A stretch of DNA of 64,000 nt from positions 372,001 through 436,000 of the forward strand of contig NZ_LNBE01000003.1 of NCBI RefSeq assembly GCF_001445655.1, read 5' to 3'. A program made the translations under genes and the position numbers. The DNA comes from Streptomyces roseifaciens. Its GTDB lineage: Bacteria; Actinomycetota; Actinomycetes; Streptomycetales; Streptomycetaceae. The notes below the pieces were generated by a model. It did not search any database. It saw only the letters and a list, made by a program, of their open reading frames with translations, and was not told where the DNA came from. Below, piece after piece: positions 6,526 through 51,869 of the stretch (positions are counted from its first letter, which is position 1; each line of letters starts with the position of its first letter).

Positions 6526-7710
6526 GTGCAGGCAGCAAACGAATCACCGGGGCGTCGGGCCGGCCGGCTGCACAGGGCTCGCGTCCTGTACCGAAATGTC
6601 TCGAAACGCAGGATGGCGTGGCTTCTTCTGAAGGACACGGTCAACTCCTGCATCGAATACCGCGTCACCGGGCTCGCGGCGGAGGCCGCGTTCTTCACCC
6701 TGCTGTCGCTGCCGCCGCTGCTGCTGGGCCTCCTCGGCCTGCTGGGCTACCTGGACGACTGGACCGGCACCAACACCATCGGCTCCATCCAGGAGAACAT
6801 CCTCAAGGCGTCCGCGACGGTCCTCAGCGACAAGGGCGTCAACGAGATCGCCCGGCCCCTGCTGCGGGACGTCACCAAGGGCCGCCCCGACGTCATCTCC
6901 GTCGGCTTCGCCATCGCGTTGTGGTCCGGTTCGCGCGCCGTCAACGTCTTCGTCGACACCATCACGATCATGTACGGGCTGGAGGGCAAGCGCGGCATCG
7001 TCCGGACCCGCCTGCTCGCCTTCCTCCTCTACATCGTCGCCCTCCTCATCGGGGCGGTGGCGCTGCCGCTGATGGTCGCCGGGCCCGAGGCGGTGGTGGA
7101 CGTCGTGCCCTGGAGCGCCGACGTCGTGCGCTTCCTGTACTGGCCCGTCGTCATCCTGCTGTGCATCGCCTTCCTCACCACGCTCTACCACGTGTCCGTG
7201 CCGGTCCGTTCGCCCTGGCAGGAGGACATCCCCGGCGCGCTCGTCGCCCTGACGATGTGGGTGTTCGGCAGCTTCCTGCTGCGGATCTACCTCACCCACA
7301 CGGTGGAGGGCCTGACCATCTACGGCTCCCTCGCCGCGCCCGTCGCCGTGCTGCTGTGGATCGGCGTCTCGGCCTTCGCCGTGCTCGTCGGCGCGGCCGT
7401 CAACGCCGCGCTCGACCGGGTGTGGCCGTCGGTGGCCACCGCCGCCGCGCGCGCCGACGTCGACCGGCTGCGGGCCGCGGCCGCGGCGCAGGAGGCGGCC
7501 GAGCGGGCGGCCCGCGCGCTGGAGGCGAGCCTGGAGGAGGACCTCGACGACTACGGCCCGGACGAGGGCGTGATCGGCCAGGACCGCGAGCCGCCTTCGG
7601 AGTTCCCGGAGCGGTGGGCGCAGTTCCTGCCCCCTGACGACGTCCGCTCCCGCCTCCAGAAGGAGGGCCACCAGCCGAAGCACGCGCGGCACGCGAAGCG
7701 GCGCGACTAG
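6526..7710 (+). CDS. YihY/BrkB family inner membrane protein
   Basis: 394-aa integral membrane protein. Six hydrophobic segments lie between about residues 45 and 300, including LLLGLLGLLGYL, LLAFLLYIVALLIGAVALPL and VAVLLWIGVSAFAVLVGAA, with the family's GSxxAPVAVLLWI signature. The C-terminal 90 residues are charged, Ala/Glu-rich and end in a basic tail, likely cytoplasmic. The GTG start has TACGGT-like and TAG-rich sequence immediately upstream and no good Shine-Dalgarno, so the transcript may be leaderless, which is common in Streptomyces. Biochemical role of the family is not settled; it is often annotated as ribonuclease BN-like in error. Confidence 0.88.
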   Translation: MQAANESPGRRAGRLHRARVLYRNVSKRRMAWLLLKDTVNSCIEYRVTGLAAEAAFFTLLSLPPLLLGLLGLLGYLDDWTGTNTIGSIQENILKASATVLSDKGVNEIARPLLRDVTKGRPDVISVGFAIALWSGSRAVNVFVDTITIMYGLEGKRGIVRTRLLAFLLYIVALLIGAVALPLMVAGPEAVVDVVPWSADVVRFLYWPVVILLCIAFLTTLYHVSVPVRSPWQEDIPGALVALTMWVFGSFLLRIYLTHTVEGLTIYGSLAAPVAVLLWIGVSAFAVLVGAAVNAALDRVWPSVATAAARADVDRLRAAAAAQEAAERAARALEASLEEDLDDYGPDEGVIGQDREPPSEFPERWAQFLPPDDVRSRLQKEGHQPKHARHAKRRD

Positions 7711-41046: not shown

Positions 41047-41853
41047 GTGCAGTTCCGCCAGCAGGCGCTTTCCAAGCTGCAATCGCCCGAAGAGCTCGAT
41101 CTGCCCGTACGATTCGCGCGCCCGCAGGGCCGGCTCGTGCTGGCCGTCACGGTCGCCGTCGTTGCCGCGGCGGCTTTCTGGGCGTTCACCGGAACGGTGT
41201 CGTCCAGGCTGAGCGCACCCGGCATTCTCACCCGGGCCGAGGGCAGTTATCTGCTGCAGAGCCCGTACGCGGGGCAGGTCACCGGAGTCCTCGCGCGCGA
41301 GGGCCAGCTGCTGGCGCCGGGCGCCCCCCTGCTGCAGATCAGCACGGACCGGGGCGAGCGGACCGTGCGCGTCGTGGCCGGGGGACGGGTGACGACGCTC
41401 GTCGCCAAGACGGGCGCGGTCGTCACGACCGGCGCGGACGTCGCGATCGTGGAAAAGGTGACGAACCCGGACGAGCCGCTGGTGGCCATGCTGTACGTGC
41501 CCGGCGGGAGCGGCGGCGCGATCCCCGTGGGCGCCGCGGTCGACCTGAACGTCCAGTCCGTCCCCCGGGAGAAGTTCGGCGTGCTGCGCGGCCGCGTCCA
41601 GGCCGTAGGCCGCGCACCCCAGACCCCGGCGCAGATCGGCGGCTTCCTCGGTGACGGCCGGCTCGCCGCACAGTTCACCCGGCAGGGCAACCCCGTCGCC
41701 GTGCTCGTGCGGCTGGAGCGCTCGCCCGCCGCCCGGTCCGGCTACCGCTGGTCCTCGGCGGACGGCCCCCCGTACGCCGTCGACTCCACGACGCCGGTCA
41801 CCGCCGCCGTCCACCTCGCCGACCAGCGGCCCGTCGACTGGCTGCTGCCGTGA
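41047..41853 (+). CDS. HlyD-like membrane fusion/adaptor protein (NHLM system type)
   Basis: 268-aa adaptor. A single membrane anchor (VLAVTVAVVAAAAFWAF, about residues 31-47) is followed by a biotinyl-lipoyl-like barrel (LQSPYAGQVTGVLAREGQLLAPGAPLLQIS) and no long coiled coil, the short form usual in actinobacterial NHLM export systems. It probably docks onto the peptidase-ABC exporter. GTG start with AAGGAA upstream. Its TGA overlaps the GTG of the exporter (GTGA), indicating translational coupling. Confidence 0.85.
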   Translation: MQFRQQALSKLQSPEELDLPVRFARPQGRLVLAVTVAVVAAAAFWAFTGTVSSRLSAPGILTRAEGSYLLQSPYAGQVTGVLAREGQLLAPGAPLLQISTDRGERTVRVVAGGRVTTLVAKTGAVVTTGADVAIVEKVTNPDEPLVAMLYVPGGSGGAIPVGAAVDLNVQSVPREKFGVLRGRVQAVGRAPQTPAQIGGFLGDGRLAAQFTRQGNPVAVLVRLERSPAARSGYRWSSADGPPYAVDSTTPVTAAVHLADQRPVDWLLP

Positions 41854-44054
41854 CCGCCCCGCGCCGCCGCCGCGCGCCCGCACCCGCCCCCCGGGGCCGG
41901 ACGCCCCGGCCCGTCCGCACCCCCACCGTGCTGCAGATGGAGGCGGTGGAGTGCGGTGCCGCCGCGCTGGCCATGGTGCTCGGCCACTACGGCCGCTTCG
42001 TCCCCCTGGAGGAGCTGCGCATCGCGTGCGGCGTCTCGCGCGACGGCTCCCGAGCGAGCAACCTCCTCAAGGCCGCCCGCAGCCACGGGCTGAAGGCCAA
42101 GGGCATGCAGATGGACGTCGGCGCGCTCGCCGGGGTGCGCCCGCCCGCCGTCCTCTTCTGGGAGTTCAACCACTACGTCGTCCACGACGGCACGGGCCGC
42201 CGCTTCGGCCGCCGGGGCGTGTACGTCAACGACCCCGCAAAAGGCCGGCGGTTCGTCCCCATGGACGAGTTCGACGACTCCTTCACCGGCGTCGTCCTCA
42301 CCTTCGAACCCGGCGACGACTTCCGCCGCACCGGCCGCAGACCGGGCGTCACAGGCGCCCTGCCCGCCCGCCTGCGCGGCACCTCCGGCACCCTGCTCGC
42401 CGCCGTGATCTCCAGCCTCCTGCTGGTGGTCGTCGGCGCGGCGGTGCCCGCGCTCAGCCGCACGTACATCGACACGTTCCTGATCGGCGGCCGGACGTCG
42501 CTGCTGGGCGTGCTCTTCGCGTCCATGGCGGGCGCCCTGGTGCTCACCGCGACGCTCACCGCGCTGCAGCAGGCCAACCTGCTGCGCGGGCGCATCATCT
42601 CCTCCACCCTGGGCAGCGCCCGCTTCCTGCGGCACCTGCTACGCCTCCCCGTCACCTTCTACTCCCAGCGCAACCCCGCCGACCTCGTCCAGCGCCTGCA
42701 GTCCAACGACGCGGTCGCCGAGACCCTGGCGCGCGACCTCGCCGCGGCCGGCGTGGACGCGGTCGTCGTCCTGCTCTACGCCGTGCTGCTGTGGACGTAC
42801 GACCCGCAGCTCACCGTCGTCGGCGTGCTGATGGCGCTGCTCAACGTCGTCGCCATGCGCATCGTGGTCCGCGTACGGGCCACCGGGACGCAGAAGCTGC
42901 GCGCCGAGAGCGCCCGGCTCACCAACACCTCCTACAGCGGCCTGACCCTCATCGAGACGATGAAGGCCACCGGCGGCGAGAACGGCTTCTTCCGCCGCTG
43001 GGCCGGCCAGCACGCGGTCACGCTCGACGTGCAGCAGCGGCTCGGCGTGCCCAGCGCGTGGCTGGCGGTCGTCGCGCCCGCGCTGGCCGCGCTCAACAGC
43101 GCCCTGATCCTGATGATCGGCGGCGTGCGCGCGGTGGAGGGCCACCTCTCCGTCGGCCTGCTCGTCGCCTTCCAGGCCCTGGTCACCGGCTTCACCGCGC
43201 CGATCACCCGGCTCAACGGCGTCGCCGGGCGGATCCAGGACTTCGCGGCCGACGTCGCCCGCCTCAAGGACGTCGAGAACTTCCCCGCCGACCCGGTCTA
43301 CTCGCGGCGCGAGGCCCCCGCCGGCACCCGCCGCCTCAAGGGCCACGTGGAGCTGGAGAACGTCACCTTCGGCTACAGCCCCCTCGACGCCCCGCTGCTC
43401 AAGGACTTCTCGCTCTCGGTCGGCCCCGGGCAGCAGATCGCGCTCGTCGGCGGCTCCGGCAGCGGCAAGTCCACCGTCTCCCGGCTCATATCCGGCCTCT
43501 ACGCCCCCTGGGAAGGCGCCATCCGCATCGACGGAATGCGGCTGGAGGACATCCCGCGCGGCGCGCTGGCCGCCTCCGTCTCCTTCGTCGACCAGGACGT
43601 CTTCCTCTTCGAGGGCACCGTGCGCGACAACGTCGCCCTGTGGGACCCGTCGATCACGGACGAGGCCGTCGTCGCAGCCCTGGAGGACGCCGCCGTGTAC
43701 GACGTCGTCGCGCGCCGCCCCGGCGGCATCCACAGCCGCGTCGAGCAGGACGGCCGTAACTTCTCCGGCGGCCAGCGCCAGCGCCTGGAGATCGCCCGGG
43801 CGCTGGTGCGCCGCCCCAGCGTCATGGTCCTGGACGAGGTGACCAGCGCCCTGGACGCGGTCACCGAGCAGACCGTCATGGACAACCTGCGGCGCCGCGG
43901 CTGCGCCTGCGTCGTCATCGCCCACCGGCTGAGCACCGTGCGCGACAGCGACGAGATCGTCGTCCTCGACCGGGGCACGGTCGTGGAACGCGGGCGGCAC
44001 GAGTACCTGGTGGCCGCGCAGGGCACGTACGCGGAACTGGTCAAGGAGCACTGA
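41850..44054 (+). CDS. Peptidase C39-containing ABC transporter (NHLM system ABC1)
   Basis: 734-aa exporter. The N-terminal C39 peptidase has Cys35 (MEAVECGAAA), His108 (EFNHYVV) and Asp128 (VNDPAKG), so it should cut the leader after GG. The six-helix ABC membrane domain spans about residues 170-470. The ATPase domain has GGSGSGKST (Walker A), SGGQRQRLEIARALV (signature) and VLDEVTSALD (Walker B), ending with the H-loop IAHRLST. Architecture equals the NHLM_micro_ABC1 family. It precedes ABC2 by one nt. Confidence 0.94.
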   Translation: MTAPRRRRAPAPAPRGRTPRPVRTPTVLQMEAVECGAAALAMVLGHYGRFVPLEELRIACGVSRDGSRASNLLKAARSHGLKAKGMQMDVGALAGVRPPAVLFWEFNHYVVHDGTGRRFGRRGVYVNDPAKGRRFVPMDEFDDSFTGVVLTFEPGDDFRRTGRRPGVTGALPARLRGTSGTLLAAVISSLLLVVVGAAVPALSRTYIDTFLIGGRTSLLGVLFASMAGALVLTATLTALQQANLLRGRIISSTLGSARFLRHLLRLPVTFYSQRNPADLVQRLQSNDAVAETLARDLAAAGVDAVVVLLYAVLLWTYDPQLTVVGVLMALLNVVAMRIVVRVRATGTQKLRAESARLTNTSYSGLTLIETMKATGGENGFFRRWAGQHAVTLDVQQRLGVPSAWLAVVAPALAALNSALILMIGGVRAVEGHLSVGLLVAFQALVTGFTAPITRLNGVAGRIQDFAADVARLKDVENFPADPVYSRREAPAGTRRLKGHVELENVTFGYSPLDAPLLKDFSLSVGPGQQIALVGGSGSGKSTVSRLISGLYAPWEGAIRIDGMRLEDIPRGALAASVSFVDQDVFLFEGTVRDNVALWDPSITDEAVVAALEDAAVYDVVARRPGGIHSRVEQDGRNFSGGQRQRLEIARALVRRPSVMVLDEVTSALDAVTEQTVMDNLRRRGCACVVIAHRLSTVRDSDEIVVLDRGTVVERGRHEYLVAAQGTYAELVKEH

Positions 44055-44055
44055 G

Positions 44056-46998
44056 GTGACGACTCCGCACCACGCCCACGTCCCGGTCGCCGCCGATCCC
44101 GTGCTGGCCGCCATGGGCGGGCTCGGGACGCCCGTCGACTGCACCGGCCTGCGCAGCCTGTCGCTGGAGGGCCCGCACGTGCTGTGGCTCGTCGAGGACG
44201 GCGAGCTGGACCTGTTCGCCGTCGACGTCGCGCAGGCGGGCCACTGGCACTTCCTGGGCCGGCTGGAGCCGGGCACGCTGCTGCTGGGCCCGGCGGAGGG
44301 CCCGGCGCACACGCTGACCGGCCGCCCGCGGCAGGGCTGCCGGCTGCGCCGCATCGAGCTGGGGGAGCTGTACGCGTATGGCGCGTATGGCGCGTATGGC
44401 GACCAGGGATACGGCACGAACGGCTCGCATGGCTCGTACGGCGATCAGGGGTATGGCGCGTACGGCGCGTACGGCTCGTACGGCGACCAGGGATACGGCT
44501 CGTATGGCTCGTACGGCGCTCCTGAAGGGACGCTGAGCCCCTTGGAGGACGCCTTTGCCCTCGGCGTCGGCCGCGGCCTGCACGTGCTGTATCAGGCGCC
44601 GCTGGAGAACAACAGGACCGGCGCCGCCCGCAGCGGGGCCGACGACGACGTGCTGTGGATGCAGATCGCCCCGGGCAGTGTGCAGTACGGCGCCGCGTAC
44701 GAGGGGTACGCCGCGGGGAGCCTCCTCGTCGACGCGGCGATGTGGCAGGGCATGATCGACCAGCAGTACCGCCTGCTGCACGCCCTCGACCGCTGGATCG
44801 AGCAGCTGGAGCGCGCCCACGAGGACCGTACGGCCGCCGGCATCGAGGCGGGCGAGGCCGCCCGCACCCAGGCGGACCGGACGCTGATCGCTTCCATCGG
44901 CCGCTCCGGCGAGAGGTCCCGGCGCGGCGGGACCGGCGGCGACGACAGTGCGACGTTCGAGGTGTGCCGGCTGGTGGCCGGGGCGGCGGGCATCGCCCTG
45001 TCCGAGCCCGGCGCGGCCTCGCCGGGCCGGACGGACCCCGTCGAGCGCATCGCGCTCGCCTCACGGATCCGCACCCGTACCGTCAGGCTGAGCGGCCGAT
45101 GGTGGCAGGAGGACGGCGGGCCCCTGGTGGCCCGGCGCGCGGGGGACGGGGCACCGGTCGCCCTGCTGTGGCGGCGCGGCCGCTACGAGGCGGTCGACCC
45201 GGCGACCGGCACGCGGGAGCGCGTGGGGAAGGACGCCGAGTCCTCCTTCGAGCCGCGGGCCGTCATGTTCTACCGCCCGCTGCCGGACGTGCCGTTGGGG
45301 CCGCTGGGGCTGGTGCGTTTCAGCGTGCGCGGCACCGGCAGGGACCTGCGCGGCGTCCTGCTGGGCGGCCTGGTCGCCGTCTGCCTGGGCGCACTCGTGC
45401 CCGTCGCCACGGGACGGGTGCTCGGCACGTACGTACCCGCCGCCGAGACCGGCCTCATCGTGCAGACCGCCCTGGGGCTCGTCGTCACGAGCATCGTCTC
45501 GGCGGTCTTCATGCTGCTCCAGAACGTCTCCGTCCTGCGGATGGAGGGCCGTATCGAGGCCACCCTGCAGCCGGCCGTCTGGGACCGGCTGCTGCGGCTG
45601 CCGACGACGTTCTTCACCGGCCGCTCCACCGGCGAACTGGCCGGTGCCGCCATGGGCATCAGCGCCGTCCGCAGGACGCTGTCCGGCATCGGCCCGGTCG
45701 TCCTGCAGGCGGCCACCGTCGGCACAATGAACCTCGTCCTGCTGCTCGTCTACAGCGTGCCGCTGGCGCTGGCCGCCGTCGCCATGCTGACCGTCATCGC
45801 GGCGGTCTTCCTGGGCCTGGGGCTGTGGCAGCTGCGCTGGCAGCGGCAACTGATCAAGCTGAGCAACAAGCTCAACAACCAGGCGTTCCAGACCCTGCGC
45901 GGACTGCCGAAGCTGCGCGTGGCCGCGGCCGAGAGCTTCGCCTACGCCGCCTGGGCGCGGGAGTTCGCCCGCACGCGCGAGCTGCAGCAGCGCATCGGCC
46001 GGCTCAAGAACGTCGTGACGGTGCTCAACGCGGTCTGCCTGCCCCTGTGCACGCTCGTGATGTTCATGCTCCTGGCGGGCCCGGCCCGGGACAGCATGTC
46101 CGCGGGGGACTTCCTCACCTTCAGCACCGCCGTGACGATGCTGCTGTCCTCCGTGACCCAGCTGACTGGCGCCCTCCTGTCGGCCGCCGCCGTCCAGCCG
46201 ATGTTCGAACAGGTCAGGCCGATCCTCCGGGCCGAGGTCGAGGTCCGCGGCTCGAGCGTCCAACCGGGCGAACTGAGCGGCGCCATAGCGGCCAAGAGCC
46301 TGTCCTACCGCTACAGCGCGGACGGCCCGCTCGTCCTCGACGACGTGACCTTCGACGTGCGCCCGGGCGAGTTCGTCGCCGTCGTCGGCGCCAGCGGCTG
46401 CGGCAAGTCGACCCTCCTGCGCCTGCTCATCGGCTTCGACAAGCCCGCCTCCGGCAGCGTCCTCTACGACGGCCAGGACCTCGCCGCCCTCGACCGGCCG
46501 GCTGTCCGCCGCCAGTGCGGCGTCGTCCTCCAGCACGCCCAGCCGTTCTCCGGCTCGATCCTCGACTGCATCCGCGGCGCCGGCGACTTCACCCTGGAAG
46601 AGGCGTGGGAGGCCGCCGCGATGGCGGGCCTCGCCGAGGACATCAAGGCGATGCCCATGGGCATGCACACCATGCTCTCCGACGGCGGCGGCACCGTCTC
46701 CGGCGGCCAGCGCCAACGCCTCATGATCGCCCAGGCCCTCATCCGCAAGCCCCGCGTCCTCTTCCTGGACGAGGCCACGAGCGCACTGGACAACGAGGCC
46801 CAGCGCGTGATCACCGAATCCACCCGCGCCCTACGGGCCACGCGCATAGTGATCGCCCACCGCCTGTCCACGGTCATGGACGCCGACCGCGTCATCGTCA
46901 TGTCGGAAGGCCGCATAACCCAACAGGGCCCACCCACCACCCTCCTGACCGACACAACAGGCCTCTTCCACGAACTGGTCCACCGCCAGCTCGGCTGA
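44056..46998 (+). CDS. NHLM system ABC transporter 2 with Tyr/Gly repeat insertion
   Basis: 980-aa ABC protein without a peptidase domain. The N-terminal about 100 residues resemble a cyclic-nucleotide-binding-like barrel (SLEGPHVLWLVEDGELDLFAV). A tandem repeat of about 50 residues follows, made of YGAYG/YGDQGYG units, then a helical linker, a membrane domain from about residue 435 (GVLLGGLVAVCLGALVPVA), and an ATPase with GASGCGKST, SGGQRQRLMIAQAL and LFLDEATSALD. It matches NHLM_micro_ABC2 apart from the repeat. Probably forms the second half-transporter with ABC1. Confidence 0.92.
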   Translation: MTTPHHAHVPVAADPVLAAMGGLGTPVDCTGLRSLSLEGPHVLWLVEDGELDLFAVDVAQAGHWHFLGRLEPGTLLLGPAEGPAHTLTGRPRQGCRLRRIELGELYAYGAYGAYGDQGYGTNGSHGSYGDQGYGAYGAYGSYGDQGYGSYGSYGAPEGTLSPLEDAFALGVGRGLHVLYQAPLENNRTGAARSGADDDVLWMQIAPGSVQYGAAYEGYAAGSLLVDAAMWQGMIDQQYRLLHALDRWIEQLERAHEDRTAAGIEAGEAARTQADRTLIASIGRSGERSRRGGTGGDDSATFEVCRLVAGAAGIALSEPGAASPGRTDPVERIALASRIRTRTVRLSGRWWQEDGGPLVARRAGDGAPVALLWRRGRYEAVDPATGTRERVGKDAESSFEPRAVMFYRPLPDVPLGPLGLVRFSVRGTGRDLRGVLLGGLVAVCLGALVPVATGRVLGTYVPAAETGLIVQTALGLVVTSIVSAVFMLLQNVSVLRMEGRIEATLQPAVWDRLLRLPTTFFTGRSTGELAGAAMGISAVRRTLSGIGPVVLQAATVGTMNLVLLLVYSVPLALAAVAMLTVIAAVFLGLGLWQLRWQRQLIKLSNKLNNQAFQTLRGLPKLRVAAAESFAYAAWAREFARTRELQQRIGRLKNVVTVLNAVCLPLCTLVMFMLLAGPARDSMSAGDFLTFSTAVTMLLSSVTQLTGALLSAAAVQPMFEQVRPILRAEVEVRGSSVQPGELSGAIAAKSLSYRYSADGPLVLDDVTFDVRPGEFVAVVGASGCGKSTLLRLLIGFDKPASGSVLYDGQDLAALDRPAVRRQCGVVLQHAQPFSGSILDCIRGAGDFTLEEAWEAAAMAGLAEDIKAMPMGMHTMLSDGGGTVSGGQRQRLMIAQALIRKPRVLFLDEATSALDNEAQRVITESTRALRATRIVIAHRLSTVMDADRVIVMSEGRITQQGPPTTLLTDTTGLFHELVHRQLG
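44368..44521 (+). repeat. Tyr/Gly-coding tandem repeat inside ABC2
   Basis: Degenerate 9-nt and 30-nt units (TATGGCGCG, GGCGACCAGGGATACGGC) encode runs like YGAYGAYGDQGYG and YGSYGDQGYG in-frame. Bases 44368-44521 of the gene. Confidence 0.85.
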
Positions 46999-47396: not shown

Positions 47397-49289
47397 TCAT
47401 GCAGCAGGCCAGGCATCGAACGTCTCGCTCGCGGGAATGCCTGAGAGCCATCGCGCGGCCCAGGTGTCGGCGTTGTCTCGTCTCTTGGCATGCGCTGTTG
47501 CCTGGGACTCGCCTTCGAGCAGCGCACTGAGGCTGTCCATGAGGCCGGTGCCCGCCAGGAAATGGGCGAGCGGTGCGACCGACGCAGCTGCCCCTGGTGT
47601 GACGGGGCCGCCATGCGCGAGTGAATTACGCACAGATCTCAAACGATTGAGGGCACGTGACCAGCGGTCATTGAACTCCTCGTACCAGGCGTGCATGCCT
47701 TCACCTCCCGCTACTCGCCTCGCCAGGCTCTCCGCACGCCGCCGCTGCTTGCTGTGTGTGGGGTAGACCAGCACAAGGTCTGGCAACCTGGAGATAACCT
47801 TGTGTATGTCGGTGTGGAAACCCATACCCTCGTACTGCACCATTTCCCTGCGCAGCGCCTCGGCGGCTTGGCCGACGTCCGGCGTGAAGTGCCTCAGGTC
47901 ATCGCGGGCGTGCCAGGCCACACGCATCAGTGCGTGGGCGATTTGATGCTGGATCCAGGCGTTCTTGTGGAAGTTGTCCAGGTAGACGTACCACTCCTGG
48001 CCCGAGACCCTGCTGGCGAGCAGTTCGAGGATCCTCACGTCCAGGACGACCGCCGGCAGGGAAGGTTGTGCGCTGGAGGCTTTCCACCAGCCGACCGCGT
48101 CGATGACATCGGACAGGTCCGAGTTTGCTCCAGGGAGATGCGGAGCAACACGAGGGGCCATACGATTCAAGCGCTCTGCCGTGGCATCCATTTGGAGGTG
48201 CGGTGTCGCGAAGTCTTCCTCGGCCAGGCGGAATGCCTCGTTGGAAGTGCAGATGCCGTCGACAGCATGGATGTACCCCACGTACATCTCCCAGCCGCGG
48301 AAGTCCTCCGGGAATGTCGCGGCTAGGACCATGGACCGTGCCTGTAGACGCGAGACGGCTGGAGCGTCTGCCGCTGCTACTACGCCGAGATCGACGCGTA
48401 CGAGGACTACGTGCGGTCCCTCCGGAAGCCAGTCCGTGGGGAAGAAGGATTCGGCTTCGGTCACCTCGTGCGGCAGTTGGTCTCGGTGAGGGCCATCCTC
48501 GGTCGCGTTGCCATGAAACCAGTCCCGGTCGTACAGGGTGATGGATCCGAACGTCTGCACCATGCCCGCGATCCGCGCCTTCGCGAAGGCGTGCCACACC
48601 ACGTGATGGGCCCGACGTGGAGGAACTGTCAGCAGTCGCACAGAGAGGTCGAGCCGGGCCTCTTCGGACAGGCCGGCTGATGCCTCGGCATCCTGACGCG
48701 ACAGCGTGCTCAGGTCCGCGACGTCCCCCAGACTGAGCTGAGCCACCCGCACGTCTATCTGCCGGTCGAGTAGGACCCCGGTGATGGAGCGCATCACTTC
48801 TGCGGAACCTCGCTGAGAACGCTTCAGGAGGGCGCGGAGCAAGCCAGTACGCATGCGGATGACCTCGTAGTCCTGGCCGTCTCTGACAGCGGACACGACG
48901 TCCCGCCAAGCGCAGATCAACTGGCCGTCTGAGCAGGCTTCCCGGGCGAGGGAGAGCAGCAGCTGACTCGCCTGTGCCACTTGCTCTTCGGCCCCCGCCG
49001 CAGGCAGGCCCTCCATTGCGGAACGGAAAGTGTCCACCTGGACGGTCAGCCCCTGTCTGTACTCCGGTCCCAGACGGTTGACGCCGTCGTCGAAGTCGTT
49101 CATGGCGGCCTGCCAGTAGAACCGGTGCCGCCTTTCGAAGTCGCGCGAGTCGTCAAGCCAAGACCGGAGCTGGTCCAGCGTCGCCGGGAACGTCAGGTCC
49201 ACTTCTTCCTTTTCGTACCAACGGTCGCGGAGGGCCTCCGTCAGCTCGAAGGTCCACGATGGGTCGACTACGACATCCCCGAAGAACAT
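47397..49289 (-). CDS. 630-aa protein with C-terminal HEPN-like motif
   Basis: Soluble 630-aa protein of unrecognised overall family. Near the C-terminus RSVRNSLAHG (551-560) gives Arg554-x4-His559, the Rx4-6H signature of HEPN nucleases, with helices on both sides (WSRALNRLR, VAPLAHFLAGTGLMDSL). The N-terminal about 250 residues are helical and charged. The middle (HVVLVRVDLGVVAAADAP, FRGWEMYVGYIHAVDGI) has beta-strand character. GC content and codon use are lower than flanking genes, suggesting acquisition. HEPN proteins in such places often serve in phage defence or toxin systems; this is inference. The 88-aa gene follows. Confidence 0.7.
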   Translation of the reverse strand: MFFGDVVVDPSWTFELTEALRDRWYEKEEVDLTFPATLDQLRSWLDDSRDFERRHRFYWQAAMNDFDDGVNRLGPEYRQGLTVQVDTFRSAMEGLPAAGAEEQVAQASQLLLSLAREACSDGQLICAWRDVVSAVRDGQDYEVIRMRTGLLRALLKRSQRGSAEVMRSITGVLLDRQIDVRVAQLSLGDVADLSTLSRQDAEASAGLSEEARLDLSVRLLTVPPRRAHHVVWHAFAKARIAGMVQTFGSITLYDRDWFHGNATEDGPHRDQLPHEVTEAESFFPTDWLPEGPHVVLVRVDLGVVAAADAPAVSRLQARSMVLAATFPEDFRGWEMYVGYIHAVDGICTSNEAFRLAEEDFATPHLQMDATAERLNRMAPRVAPHLPGANSDLSDVIDAVGWWKASSAQPSLPAVVLDVRILELLASRVSGQEWYVYLDNFHKNAWIQHQIAHALMRVAWHARDDLRHFTPDVGQAAEALRREMVQYEGMGFHTDIHKVISRLPDLVLVYPTHSKQRRRAESLARRVAGGEGMHAWYEEFNDRWSRALNRLRSVRNSLAHGGPVTPGAAASVAPLAHFLAGTGLMDSLSALLEGESQATAHAKRRDNADTWAARWLSGIPASETFDAWPAA

Positions 49290-49701: not shown

Positions 49702-51471
49702 ATGGCAGTTGGGTGGGGCGTCCATGCTCGGGGGAAGGGGCGTTCGGAGGAGGCCGAGTGGCCTGCGGTCCCGATTCACGCGAACCATGCTGCTCATGGG
49801 GCCAGCCGTCCTGTGGAGGTGGACCCTGCATCGTCCGAAGTGACGAGGCTGCTGTGTCAGGCGGTCTACGCGCGACCCGACCGGGTGAAGATGGTGAAGG
49901 CGTGGTGGCGCAAGATCCGGGGCAAGAGGGGGAAGGCCAAGAAACCTCGGCGTAGTACCAGGCGGCCAATCTATCTGGAGGGCAGCGATGACTGTCCGAC
50001 CCTGGGTGAGCCGACTGCGCAGTGGGTTGTCGACCATGTGTTGCACGGTCCGCCGCTGCCTGTGCCGTCGTACGGCTTCGATCTTGTTCCGGTGACGGCG
50101 CACAGCCTTCGTGCGCGGCGCCGCCGGTGGGCACGGCGCGCTTGCATCCTGATCCTCTGTGGGCTGGTCGCCTATGCGGCGCCGTGTGCTTTCGCGATCT
50201 GGGCAGCGGCCGTCATCGTCGCTCTATTCCTACGGTGGGCTGCCTTCCGCGCGATCCGCAAGGTCGGCCGGACGAGGTGGGCGCCTTCGCGGCGCGTGGC
50301 GTATGTCGTGCTTCTCATCCCATGGTTGCTCGCACTCATACCGTACGAACCCGCTGGTGGCGACGCGCTCGAACTGCGATTCGAACTGGCCTTACTCCCC
50401 TTCGGGCTGGCGGTTGTCGTCGCACTGGTGTACGCAGCTGACCGGCTTGTGGCACGGGCCGCGCTGGGCGCCCTGGCTCGGGAGGGTGTGTCGTCCGATG
50501 GCTTGCCGTGGGCCGCCGCGAAGGCCAGACACAGGATGACGGAGATCGGCAAGGCCCAGTCGCAGCTGGCGCTGCCTTACGACGCCTTGGAGCGGTTCGT
50601 CGGTGCCGGACGCGATGTCTGGGGACCTGCTCGCATCAGCATCCCCCTGCAGCCCAAGGACGCCGAGGAGTCGGTCAGGCCGTTCGGGGAGGCGGAACTC
50701 CTCCGGTGCGTGGGCATCGCCCTCAAGGAACTGGGCCGTGGCGCTCGGGAAATCACGGATCCACTCCCCGGGTTCTCGATGGAGCGCATACTCGGCCTTC
50801 CGGCGGCCCGATGGCTGCAGCGCACCCGCGAGACGAACGTGGAGCTGTCTGACCTGATCGGTCTGGGGCGTAGGTCCCCTTCAGGCGTGCCGGACCGGCT
50901 GTATCTGCGAGCTCAGTGCATCAGCTGGGACGGACAGATCGTGGTGAGCGTCTTCGTGCATGCCGCGCTGGAGGCCGGAGAACTCCGCCTGACCATTCGC
51001 CCGCATGTGATCACGCCGCTCTACAACGAGCTGCGGGTAGCCGACCTACCGGCCCGGACGCGCGGGGCGCGTCTACTCAGGTGGCTTGCTGCGCAGTCAC
51101 TCCTGGACACACTCATGGGCCCTTTGGCCGTGTGGCGACTGGTCGCCCGCCTCGGTGAGAAAGCCGAGGGCCGCGTGGAGGAAGAAGCCCCGGTGAGCCT
51201 GCGTGACCGGTACTCCACCGAGGAAGTCACCGACATGCACCAGGGCGACGATGCCAAGCGGCACGTCGTTCTGATGCAGTCTTGCGTATTCCGGACTGTG
51301 GCCGAGTATCTGGATGAGCAGGGAATCGACCTGACTGCGTACGAACGGCAAGTTGCCGCCGTGACCAACAACATCCTCGTATACGGGGACAACAACGCTC
51401 CCATCCAGAACGTCGCCGGCAGCGGGATCAGTGGTGTTGGCCAGGACAACAAGAATCAGGGAGACAAGTAA
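49702..51471 (+). CDS. 589-aa membrane protein ending in an NNAPxQNV motif
   Basis: Unrecognised protein. A basic N-terminus (IRGKRGKAKKPRRSTRR near residue 70) is followed by hydrophobic segments CILILCGLVAYAAPCAFAIWAAAVIVALFL, VAYVVLLIPWLLALIP and LALLPFGLAVVVALVYA (residues about 150-255). The rest is likely cytoplasmic and ends in VYGDNNAPIQNVAGSGISGVG about 15 residues from the end. An in-frame TTA (Leu231, 50392-50394) implies bldA dependence. The ATG has GGGGGAG nearby; a later ATG (MVKAWWRK, 49891) is possible. The stop overlaps the next start as TAATG. Lower GC than the core genome. Confidence 0.7.
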   Translation: MAVGWGVHARGKGRSEEAEWPAVPIHANHAAHGASRPVEVDPASSEVTRLLCQAVYARPDRVKMVKAWWRKIRGKRGKAKKPRRSTRRPIYLEGSDDCPTLGEPTAQWVVDHVLHGPPLPVPSYGFDLVPVTAHSLRARRRRWARRACILILCGLVAYAAPCAFAIWAAAVIVALFLRWAAFRAIRKVGRTRWAPSRRVAYVVLLIPWLLALIPYEPAGGDALELRFELALLPFGLAVVVALVYAADRLVARAALGALAREGVSSDGLPWAAAKARHRMTEIGKAQSQLALPYDALERFVGAGRDVWGPARISIPLQPKDAEESVRPFGEAELLRCVGIALKELGRGAREITDPLPGFSMERILGLPAARWLQRTRETNVELSDLIGLGRRSPSGVPDRLYLRAQCISWDGQIVVSVFVHAALEAGELRLTIRPHVITPLYNELRVADLPARTRGARLLRWLAAQSLLDTLMGPLAVWRLVARLGEKAEGRVEEEAPVSLRDRYSTEEVTDMHQGDDAKRHVVLMQSCVFRTVAEYLDEQGIDLTAYERQVAAVTNNILVYGDNNAPIQNVAGSGISGVGQDNKNQGDK

Positions 51472-51869
51472 TGGTTGTGAGACGGCGTCGCCCCGATCCG
51501 GACCCTGGCCATGGCTCGGGCATCAGCATCGGCGGTAACAACAACGCACCGTTGCAGAATGTGGTGGGACAGAACATCGCCAACATCCATCAGTCAGCCT
51601 CGTTGCAGGGCATGGTTGACATCGATGCTGTGCGCGGTCTCCTTACCGCCTTCCGTTCGGACGTCGACCACAACGCGGCGGACCTGCAGAACGCGATGGT
51701 GCTGCGTGCGATGGCGGACACCGTTGACGCCTCGCTGATGACCCCCGATGCGCCACAGGTCGGAACACTGCGTGGAATCGCGCAGGCGTTGCCTGCGCTT
51801 GTGGCGGGCACCGTTGTGCAGCAAGGAGGCGAAGCGCTCGCCAACGCCATCAGTGGACTGGTGAGCTAA
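51471..51869 (+). CDS. 132-aa partner protein beginning with an NNNAPxQNV motif
   Basis: After a basic head (VVRRRRPDPDP) residues about 17-38 read GISIGGNNNAPLQNVVGQNIAN, matching the C-terminal motif of the protein encoded just upstream. The remaining about 90 residues are Ala-rich helices (IDAVRGLLTAFRSDVDHNAADLQNAMVLRAMADTV). It overlaps the upstream gene by 1 nt (TAATG) with AGGGAG as SD, so the two are one translational unit. No known family. Pairing through the shared motif is a reasonable guess; the function is unknown. Confidence 0.75.
   Translation: MVVRRRRPDPDPGHGSGISIGGNNNAPLQNVVGQNIANIHQSASLQGMVDIDAVRGLLTAFRSDVDHNAADLQNAMVLRAMADTVDASLMTPDAPQVGTLRGIAQALPALVAGTVVQQGGEALANAISGLVS

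Follow-up and report, generated by a model that had tools for sequence, protein, structure and literature searches.

Co-diverging terminal motifs on a membrane protein and its small neighbor in Streptomyces roseifaciens

The window considered here, a 64,000-nucleotide stretch of the 8.64-Mb Streptomyces roseifaciens assembly (C3:372001-436000), contains two overlapping genes whose products carry similar sequences, the one at its C-terminus and the other near its N-terminus. The question raised by this locus is whether such a likeness reflects recognition between the two proteins. The first gene (49702-51471, + strand) encodes a membrane protein of 589 amino acid residues, designated MP, and the second (51471-51869, + strand) a small protein of 132 residues, designated SP. 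They are joined by the sequence TAATG at 51469-51473, in which base 51471 is common to the stop codon TAA of MP and the start codon ATG of SP, and this one-base overlap confirms the junction described in the earlier note. The MP chain is laid out as a soluble N-terminal part, hydrophobic segments, an α+β C-terminal domain, and a motif tail. The hydrophobic segments (residues 144-186 and 195-256; 50131-50469, + strand), which are predicted to form the membrane part, were called from 19-residue hydropathy windows of at least 1.5 together with long helices in the AlphaFold2 model. The C-terminal domain, as defined by the same model, comprises residues 290-563 (50569-51390, + strand). It probably faces the cytosol, a judgment made by eye from the positive charges rather than by computation.

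The C-terminal end of MP reads YGDNNAPIQNVAGSGI, and near the start of SP is found IGGNNNAPLQNVVGQNI (in fuller readings, NNILVYGDNNAPIQNVAGSGISGVGQDNKNQGDK at the end of MP and MVVRRRRPDPDPGHGSGISIGGNNNAPLQNVVGQNIANIHQ at the beginning of SP). The segment GDNNAPIQNVAGSGI is located at 51385-51429 in MP, and GGNNNAPLQNVVGQNI at 51531-51578 in SP. Local alignment pairs residues 556-587 of MP, NNILVYGDNNAPIQNVAGSGISGVGQDNKNQG (51367-51462, + strand), with residues 16-47 of SP, SGISIGGNNNAPLQNVVGQNIANIHQSASLQG (51516-51611, + strand), at a score of 73. Joint shuffling gave a mean of 23.9 and a maximum of 53, and none of 20000 shuffles scored as high as the observed match. Both open reading frames and both motifs are indeed present, as had been claimed from the sequence at the outset. 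Among 77 co-directional adjacent open reading frame pairs taken from the window and 24 related loci, the six MP-SP pairs retained by the gene picker score 67-80, whereas 70 other pairs score 35 or less with a mean of 21.9. An adjacent pair in locus L155 that scored 71 proved to be an artifact, since a tandem SGQRAAG repeat there is translated in two frames that overlap. Composition alone as the cause of the match between the tail and the downstream gene is ruled out by these 70 pairs and by the non-cognate controls given below. A search with the core NNAPxQNV, written as degenerate DNA, gave 12 sites in nine of 199 genomes of the genus, and the reversed control pattern gave none among the matches listed for those genomes. 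Eleven of the 12 sites lie inside MP or SP genes, and the twelfth (G001) is ∼120 bases from an SP-like fragment. The sequences thus support the description of MP and SP as a homotypic-looking pair of terminal motifs on overlapping neighbor genes.

The AlphaFold2 model of MP (58 sequences, mean pLDDT 80.9, pTM 0.80) displays long membrane-type helices and the α+β C-terminal domain, with residues 562-589 falling below a pLDDT of 50. In that of SP (69 sequences, mean pLDDT 71.2, pTM 0.53), residues 13-45 fall below 50, and helices at residues 51-67, 75-90, 97-111, and 117-131 give the body of the protein (residues 51-131; 51621-51863, + strand) the form of a predicted four-helix bundle. Because the pLDDT is below 50 at both motifs, these are predicted to sit in flexible, disordered tails beside folded domains. 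The SP of the window displays no clear membrane helix by hydropathy (best 19-residue mean of 1.24), and fold searches with the models returned no specific relative. Relative to the rest of MP, the aligned tails are enriched in N (8.7% versus 0.9%), Q (6.9% versus 2.6%), I (7.0% versus 2.5%), and G (18.7% versus 8.8%), and depleted in R (2.4% versus 11.1%) and L (1.3% versus 11.0%).

The motif is by no means confined to these two proteins, and the outcome that the earlier note named as refuting its idea, a motif restricted to this one pair with no pairing among homologues, did not arise. Relatives of MP were collected with MP-driven searches of 199, 150, and 150 genomes and of 197 genomes from the order, most of which belong to the genus; only the best loci were taken, and stretches from the window's own genome were added. 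Loci obtained through SP, DUF5955, or weak hits (L001-L004, L035-L054) and repeated own pairs (L058, L088, L118) were dropped before counting. An MP open reading frame is present in 120 loci, nine of which (L027-L034 and L057) hold tail-less paralogues that were labeled "core" by reading of the tails. An SP-type gene lies directly downstream in 104 of the 111 other loci and in none of the nine core loci. With repeated loci removed, there are 94 distinct pairs and five distinct loci without a pair, such that an SP-type neighbor accompanies 94 of the 99 distinct non-core MPs. A downstream SP was accepted when its start fell between -60 and +150 bases and its body matched the SP profile at E < 0.01, the first 40 residues of the candidate being omitted and the profile having been built without the motif region. 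Choosing the downstream frame by codon usage was wrong at several loci, and the SP body profile was used instead. The window SP matches that profile with an E-value of 1e-22, the profile itself including this protein.

The MP and SP genes overlap or are close to one another throughout the family, with a 4-base overlap in 45 of the 94 pairs. The non-core MPs of L025, L075, and L134 have no SP directly downstream, and the sequence of L082, one of the five loci without a pair, stops 85 bases past MP. In L024, which is counted in the 94, SP is disturbed by a frame change. L137, the last of the five loci without a separate pair, has a single open frame of 666 residues that joins MP and SP with both motifs present, and this could be a natural fusion or a sequencing error at the junction. 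In L168 (G093:C1:4418917-4420676), MP is split into several frames and the SP frame is intact. The core paralogue, which has a related domain and neither motif nor SP, is widespread and might serve as a pointer to the function of MP. Several SPs (L056:4494-5054 and the similar proteins of L026, L093, and L129) apparently carry a second copy of the motif, the example in L056 being GGIAIGRMTGGAVAAG and GGVAVGELSGGAVAAG.

The window pair is one member of this large family, and the main result of the analysis is that the cognate motifs diverge together across it. The motif sequence differs strongly among lineages, yet the tail and the N-terminus agree within each locus. The last 75 residues of the MPs were aligned against the SP N-terminal regions in all combinations. 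For representatives at 70% MP identity (n = 42), the cognate mean is 70.4 and the non-cognate mean is 33.3, and none of 20000 permutations reached the observed cognate sum at any of the cut-offs of 90, 70, 50, and 40% MP identity. With ties counted as first, the cognate partner ranks first in nine of nine cases in both directions at the 40% cut-off; at 50%, this holds for nine tails and 11 SPs out of 13 each. At 70%, only 15 tails and 18 SPs out of 42 each have their cognate in first place, and at 90%, 24 of 87 tails and 24 of 87 SPs do; in these comparisons, the partner of a relative often outscores the cognate. Such low ranking among close relatives is expected if the motif class is shared, yet no fine specificity is seen at that range. 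The difference between cognate and swapped scores, calculated for 79 representatives, grows as the MPs diverge: it is 3.8 at 70-85% MP identity (81 comparisons, 67% positive), 11.1 at 60-70% (165 comparisons), 19.9 at 50-60% (233 comparisons), 27.3 at 40-50% (436 comparisons, 96% positive), and 38.7 at 25-40% (617 comparisons, positive fraction of 1.00 to two decimals). Because cognates outscore non-cognates, unlike the outcome of one old duplication followed by independent drift, the motifs of MP and SP change together. From this co-divergence we infer that the two proteins may recognize each other specifically through their motifs.

The genome of the window contains three MP-SP pairs in total. 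The second pair, L055 (C3, ∼1470 kb), has the tail HVHGTVTGNVQTGDGANATH and the SP sequence VIHGTFSGNAQTGDHARAEY, and the third, L056 (C4, ∼2276 kb), has GGVFIGSMSGGAVAAGSGAQAK and GGIAIGRMTGGAVAAGDRAQAE, respectively. An additional MP paralogue in this genome, L057, has neither a motif tail nor a downstream SP. The three cognate scores are 73, 68, and 87, and the six cross scores range from 22 to 40. In eight genomes with two or three known pairs, hand-picked from the loci, the cognate score exceeds the cross score in 24 of 24 comparisons (means of 76.1 versus 28.6), the lowest cognate score being 45 and the highest cross score 40. The insulation is seen here at the level of sequence, and it suggests that the paralogous pairs may be insulated in function as well.

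The earlier note had likened the pair to homotypic signaling pairs of the RHIM or BASS type. The homotypic-looking terminal motifs bear out that comparison in part, whereas the absence of the RHIM tetrad and the nature of SP, which is no NLR, do not. In the NLR/Bell pairs of BASS 1-10, according to two publications (PMC7889193, PMC8086366), one protein ends and its neighbor begins with a similar short motif, the genes are adjacent or overlapping, and there are many motif families without a common sequence in actinobacterial hosts. The MP-SP pairs are alike in all of these respects, from the similar motif at the C- and N-termini of neighbors and the adjacent or overlapping genes (TAATG in the window) to the many dissimilar motif families and the actinobacterial hosts. 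Also common to MP and the BASS effector side, as described in PMC7889193, is a C-terminal motif on the membrane-associated partner. Unlike the BASS pairs, the partner with the N-terminal motif is a 132-residue DUF5955-like protein rather than an NLR, and the window SP matches no Pfam family at E ≤ 1, NB-ARC and NACHT included. MP, with 589 residues and multiple segments, has no Pfam hit and is much larger than the small Bell domain as described (PMC7889193). The best reading, by analogy, is that the MP-SP pair may work like a BASS pair; it is not filed as one since SP is not an NLR.

The consensus of the RHIM core tetrad is (V/I)-Q-(V/I/L/C)-G (PMC9444067). The window motifs are similar to RHIMs in being short, G/N/Q-containing, and homotypic-looking, with IQN or LQN and a nearby G, and differ from them in that the core tetrad is missing from both. 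Across the family, the tetrad occurs in none of the 94 tails (last 60 residues) and in three of the 94 SP N-terminal regions. The SP bodies form one profile-linked family that is distantly related to DUF5955 (PF19380), with 20 of 69 SPs matching it at E ≤ 0.01. The window SP does not match it at E ≤ 1, and among its relatives the SP of L017 scores 24.4 bits and that of L055, from the same genome, 45.8 bits, which is over the curated cut-off of 27.1 bits. The DUF5955 model leaves the motif undescribed, and no motif was seen by eye in L054, a DUF5955 gene of the same genome (125.4 bits). Small helical domains, homotypic coupling of components, and multicellular bacteria are features shared with the effector-associated and death-like helical adaptor domains of bacteria described in PMC8195603. 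In those systems, the folded domain is the homotypic element, unlike the disordered terminal motif of MP and SP. The literature search yielded no report recognized as the MP-SP pair, overlap with the tables of the BASS-defining 2020 paper being possible, and no paper on DUF5955.

When 24 loci and window positions 39001-62000 were scanned for the P-loop pattern, the scan covering genes that passed a codon filter within the contig ends, no NLR emerged; the matches were read as transporter-, FtsK-, and GTPase-like genes. There are 14 NB-ARC matches in the window's genome, the nearest on the same contig being ∼467 kb from the window pair. An NLR of this genome sharing the motif of a pair was sought by comparing the upstream parts of the 14 NB-ARC matches with the three own tails, and was rejected for this method and this genome. 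The top scores, 45 (L213) and 43 (L218), were both against the L055 tail and corresponded to weak or proline/serine-rich alignments. L213 is located ∼18 kb from the L055 pair.

The explanation that we favor, with modest confidence, is that MP and SP constitute a dedicated, NLR-free two-protein module joined by a private homotypic motif, in which an amyloid-like templated co-assembly would activate MP. It starts from the established matching of the motifs, the coupling of the genes, the co-divergence, and the low cross-similarity within a genome. MP would sit in the membrane and probably expose both its C-terminal domain and its disordered motif tail to the cytosol, and SP would carry the matching motif in the disordered tail that precedes its four-helix body. 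Upon a trigger, the two motifs would template each other into a β-rich, probably amyloid-like co-assembly, thereby clustering MP at the membrane and switching it on. The geometry is that of NLR/effector amyloid signaling (PMC7889193), with a DUF5955-like helical domain replacing the NLR as the putative activator. With its own version of the motif for each lineage and paralogue, a cell could operate several modules without crosstalk. As output, the membrane may perhaps be damaged or a hyphal compartment killed. That the two proteins physically recognize each other by means of the motifs is suggested by the sequences; the amyloid nature, the direction of signaling, and the output are conjectured by analogy. 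Templated co-assembly is favored because in each class read MP and SP have the same motif sequence, as would suit like-on-like stacking. More tentatively, the family as a whole may represent receptor-free, prion-like signaling modules, each comprising a membrane protein and a small helical partner that both carry a self-matching motif; this motif would have diversified into many dissimilar classes, providing an insulated channel for each paralogous pair.

The main rival to templated co-assembly is a specific complex of a non-amyloid kind, in which the tails pair by β-strand addition or co-fold, SP then serving MP either as a constitutive subunit or as its inhibitor. Such a complex would explain the co-divergence and the low cross-similarity equally well, and a stoichiometric pair would agree with the order and overlap of the genes. 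Interacting surfaces need complementarity, however, and not likeness, so that the sameness of both sides across diverse classes is better accommodated by stacking, and the G/N/Q/I-rich composition of the motifs also speaks against this reading, which we consider rather unlikely on balance. Matched and co-changing motifs would likewise be expected if the tails were not in contact and both bound one shared third partner in each lineage, be it a chaperone, a protease, or a filament. An extra membrane-protein gene is indeed seen by eye beside the pair in some other lineages (L056, L075, L025). In the window's class, however, most of the 24 named loci have no third conserved gene, and a separate partner would be required for each of the three paralogous pairs in the window's genome; an arrangement of this type appears improbable.

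The likeness could also be maintained at the DNA level by gene conversion or repeated duplication, with no function in recognition. The two copies of the motif are ∼150 bases apart, a favorable distance, and matched residues share their codon at a frequency of 0.60-0.61, a little more than the 0.53-0.54 predicted from the codon usage of the genes themselves. Yet the same codon is used at 687 of 1139 positions with identical residues in cognate motifs (0.603) and at 6578 of 11261 in non-cognate motifs of the same class (0.584), values that are nearly equal. Gene conversion is already disfavored because recent copying would give a far higher codon identity, towards 1, and we regard concerted evolution of this sort as very improbable.

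A 2021 review of amyloid signaling asks whether bacterial signaling amyloids exist in NLR-independent pathways, and describes motif searches to date as biased to NLR/executor architectures (PMC7889193). The MP-SP family is a direct and testable candidate for such amyloids; its motif exists in numerous natural variants, and the genomes compared have as many as three pairs each. If templated co-assembly is correct, the family would offer orthogonal pairs for homotypic interaction, and its motifs would amount to a natural experiment in the divergence of specificity.

An SP of the window's class is present in 12 of 199 genomes of the genus, in two of these by a fragment or weak match alone, and 22 of the 24 named loci of the class are titled Streptomyces. 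Across the phylum, a sample of 296 genomes contained 12 with MP-type proteins, counting those without a tail, and three of these 12 lie outside the genus (G594, G393, G549). Matched pairs are found in L190, from another order (VIAGNIGGEGNSGSV with VVAGNIGGSGNNGQI), and in L192, from another class (GVMLSGGSIQAESLAVGAGARA with GISMSGGRIEAGALAVGRGARA), both having been read by eye outside the permutation test. No partner was seen in the stretches examined from G549 (L191, L202).

Upstream of the window pair lies a divergent gene for a 630-residue orphan (47397-49289, - strand) with a chance-level hint of HEPN (Pfam E of 0.27); it is present in one (L148) of the 24 named loci. Downstream, on the opposite strand, is a gene that was read by us as CorA-like. 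No defense gene adjoins the pair. Searches of Pfam, NCBIfam, and PADLOC assigned MP to no family at cut-off, and PADLOC gave no match at E ≤ 1 for the window MP, SP, or upstream gene and one weak hit (0.00077) for 58 MPs. The downstream genes in the 24 named loci, some of which are cut by contig ends, include five of HNH, four of PLD-like, and three of integrase type. One example of each was scanned against Pfam and PADLOC: the HNH protein is hit by the PADLOC family SAVED_HNH at 4.9e-26, the hits of the PLD-like protein are weak (Pfam 0.0095, PADLOC ZacB 1.8e-8), and the integrase has Pfam hits. These are hints of defense or mobile islands around the pair for some lineages only. In L155, L159 (8485-10149), L166, L168, and L170, the downstream gene encodes 554-566 residues, with an HNH domain like those of SAVED-HNH defense effectors and a C-terminal part without an assigned family. 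A further gene near the pair in L056 (4984-6114), L025, and L075 encodes a protein whose W-containing N-terminus (RWDA..QQWV-like) precedes a membrane segment; the L056 copy has no Pfam or PADLOC hit, and it is possibly a third component in those lineages. Within the window itself, positions 41850-46998 (+ strand) contain two adjacent ABC-transporter-type genes with P-loops, which we read as a peptide-exporter pair.
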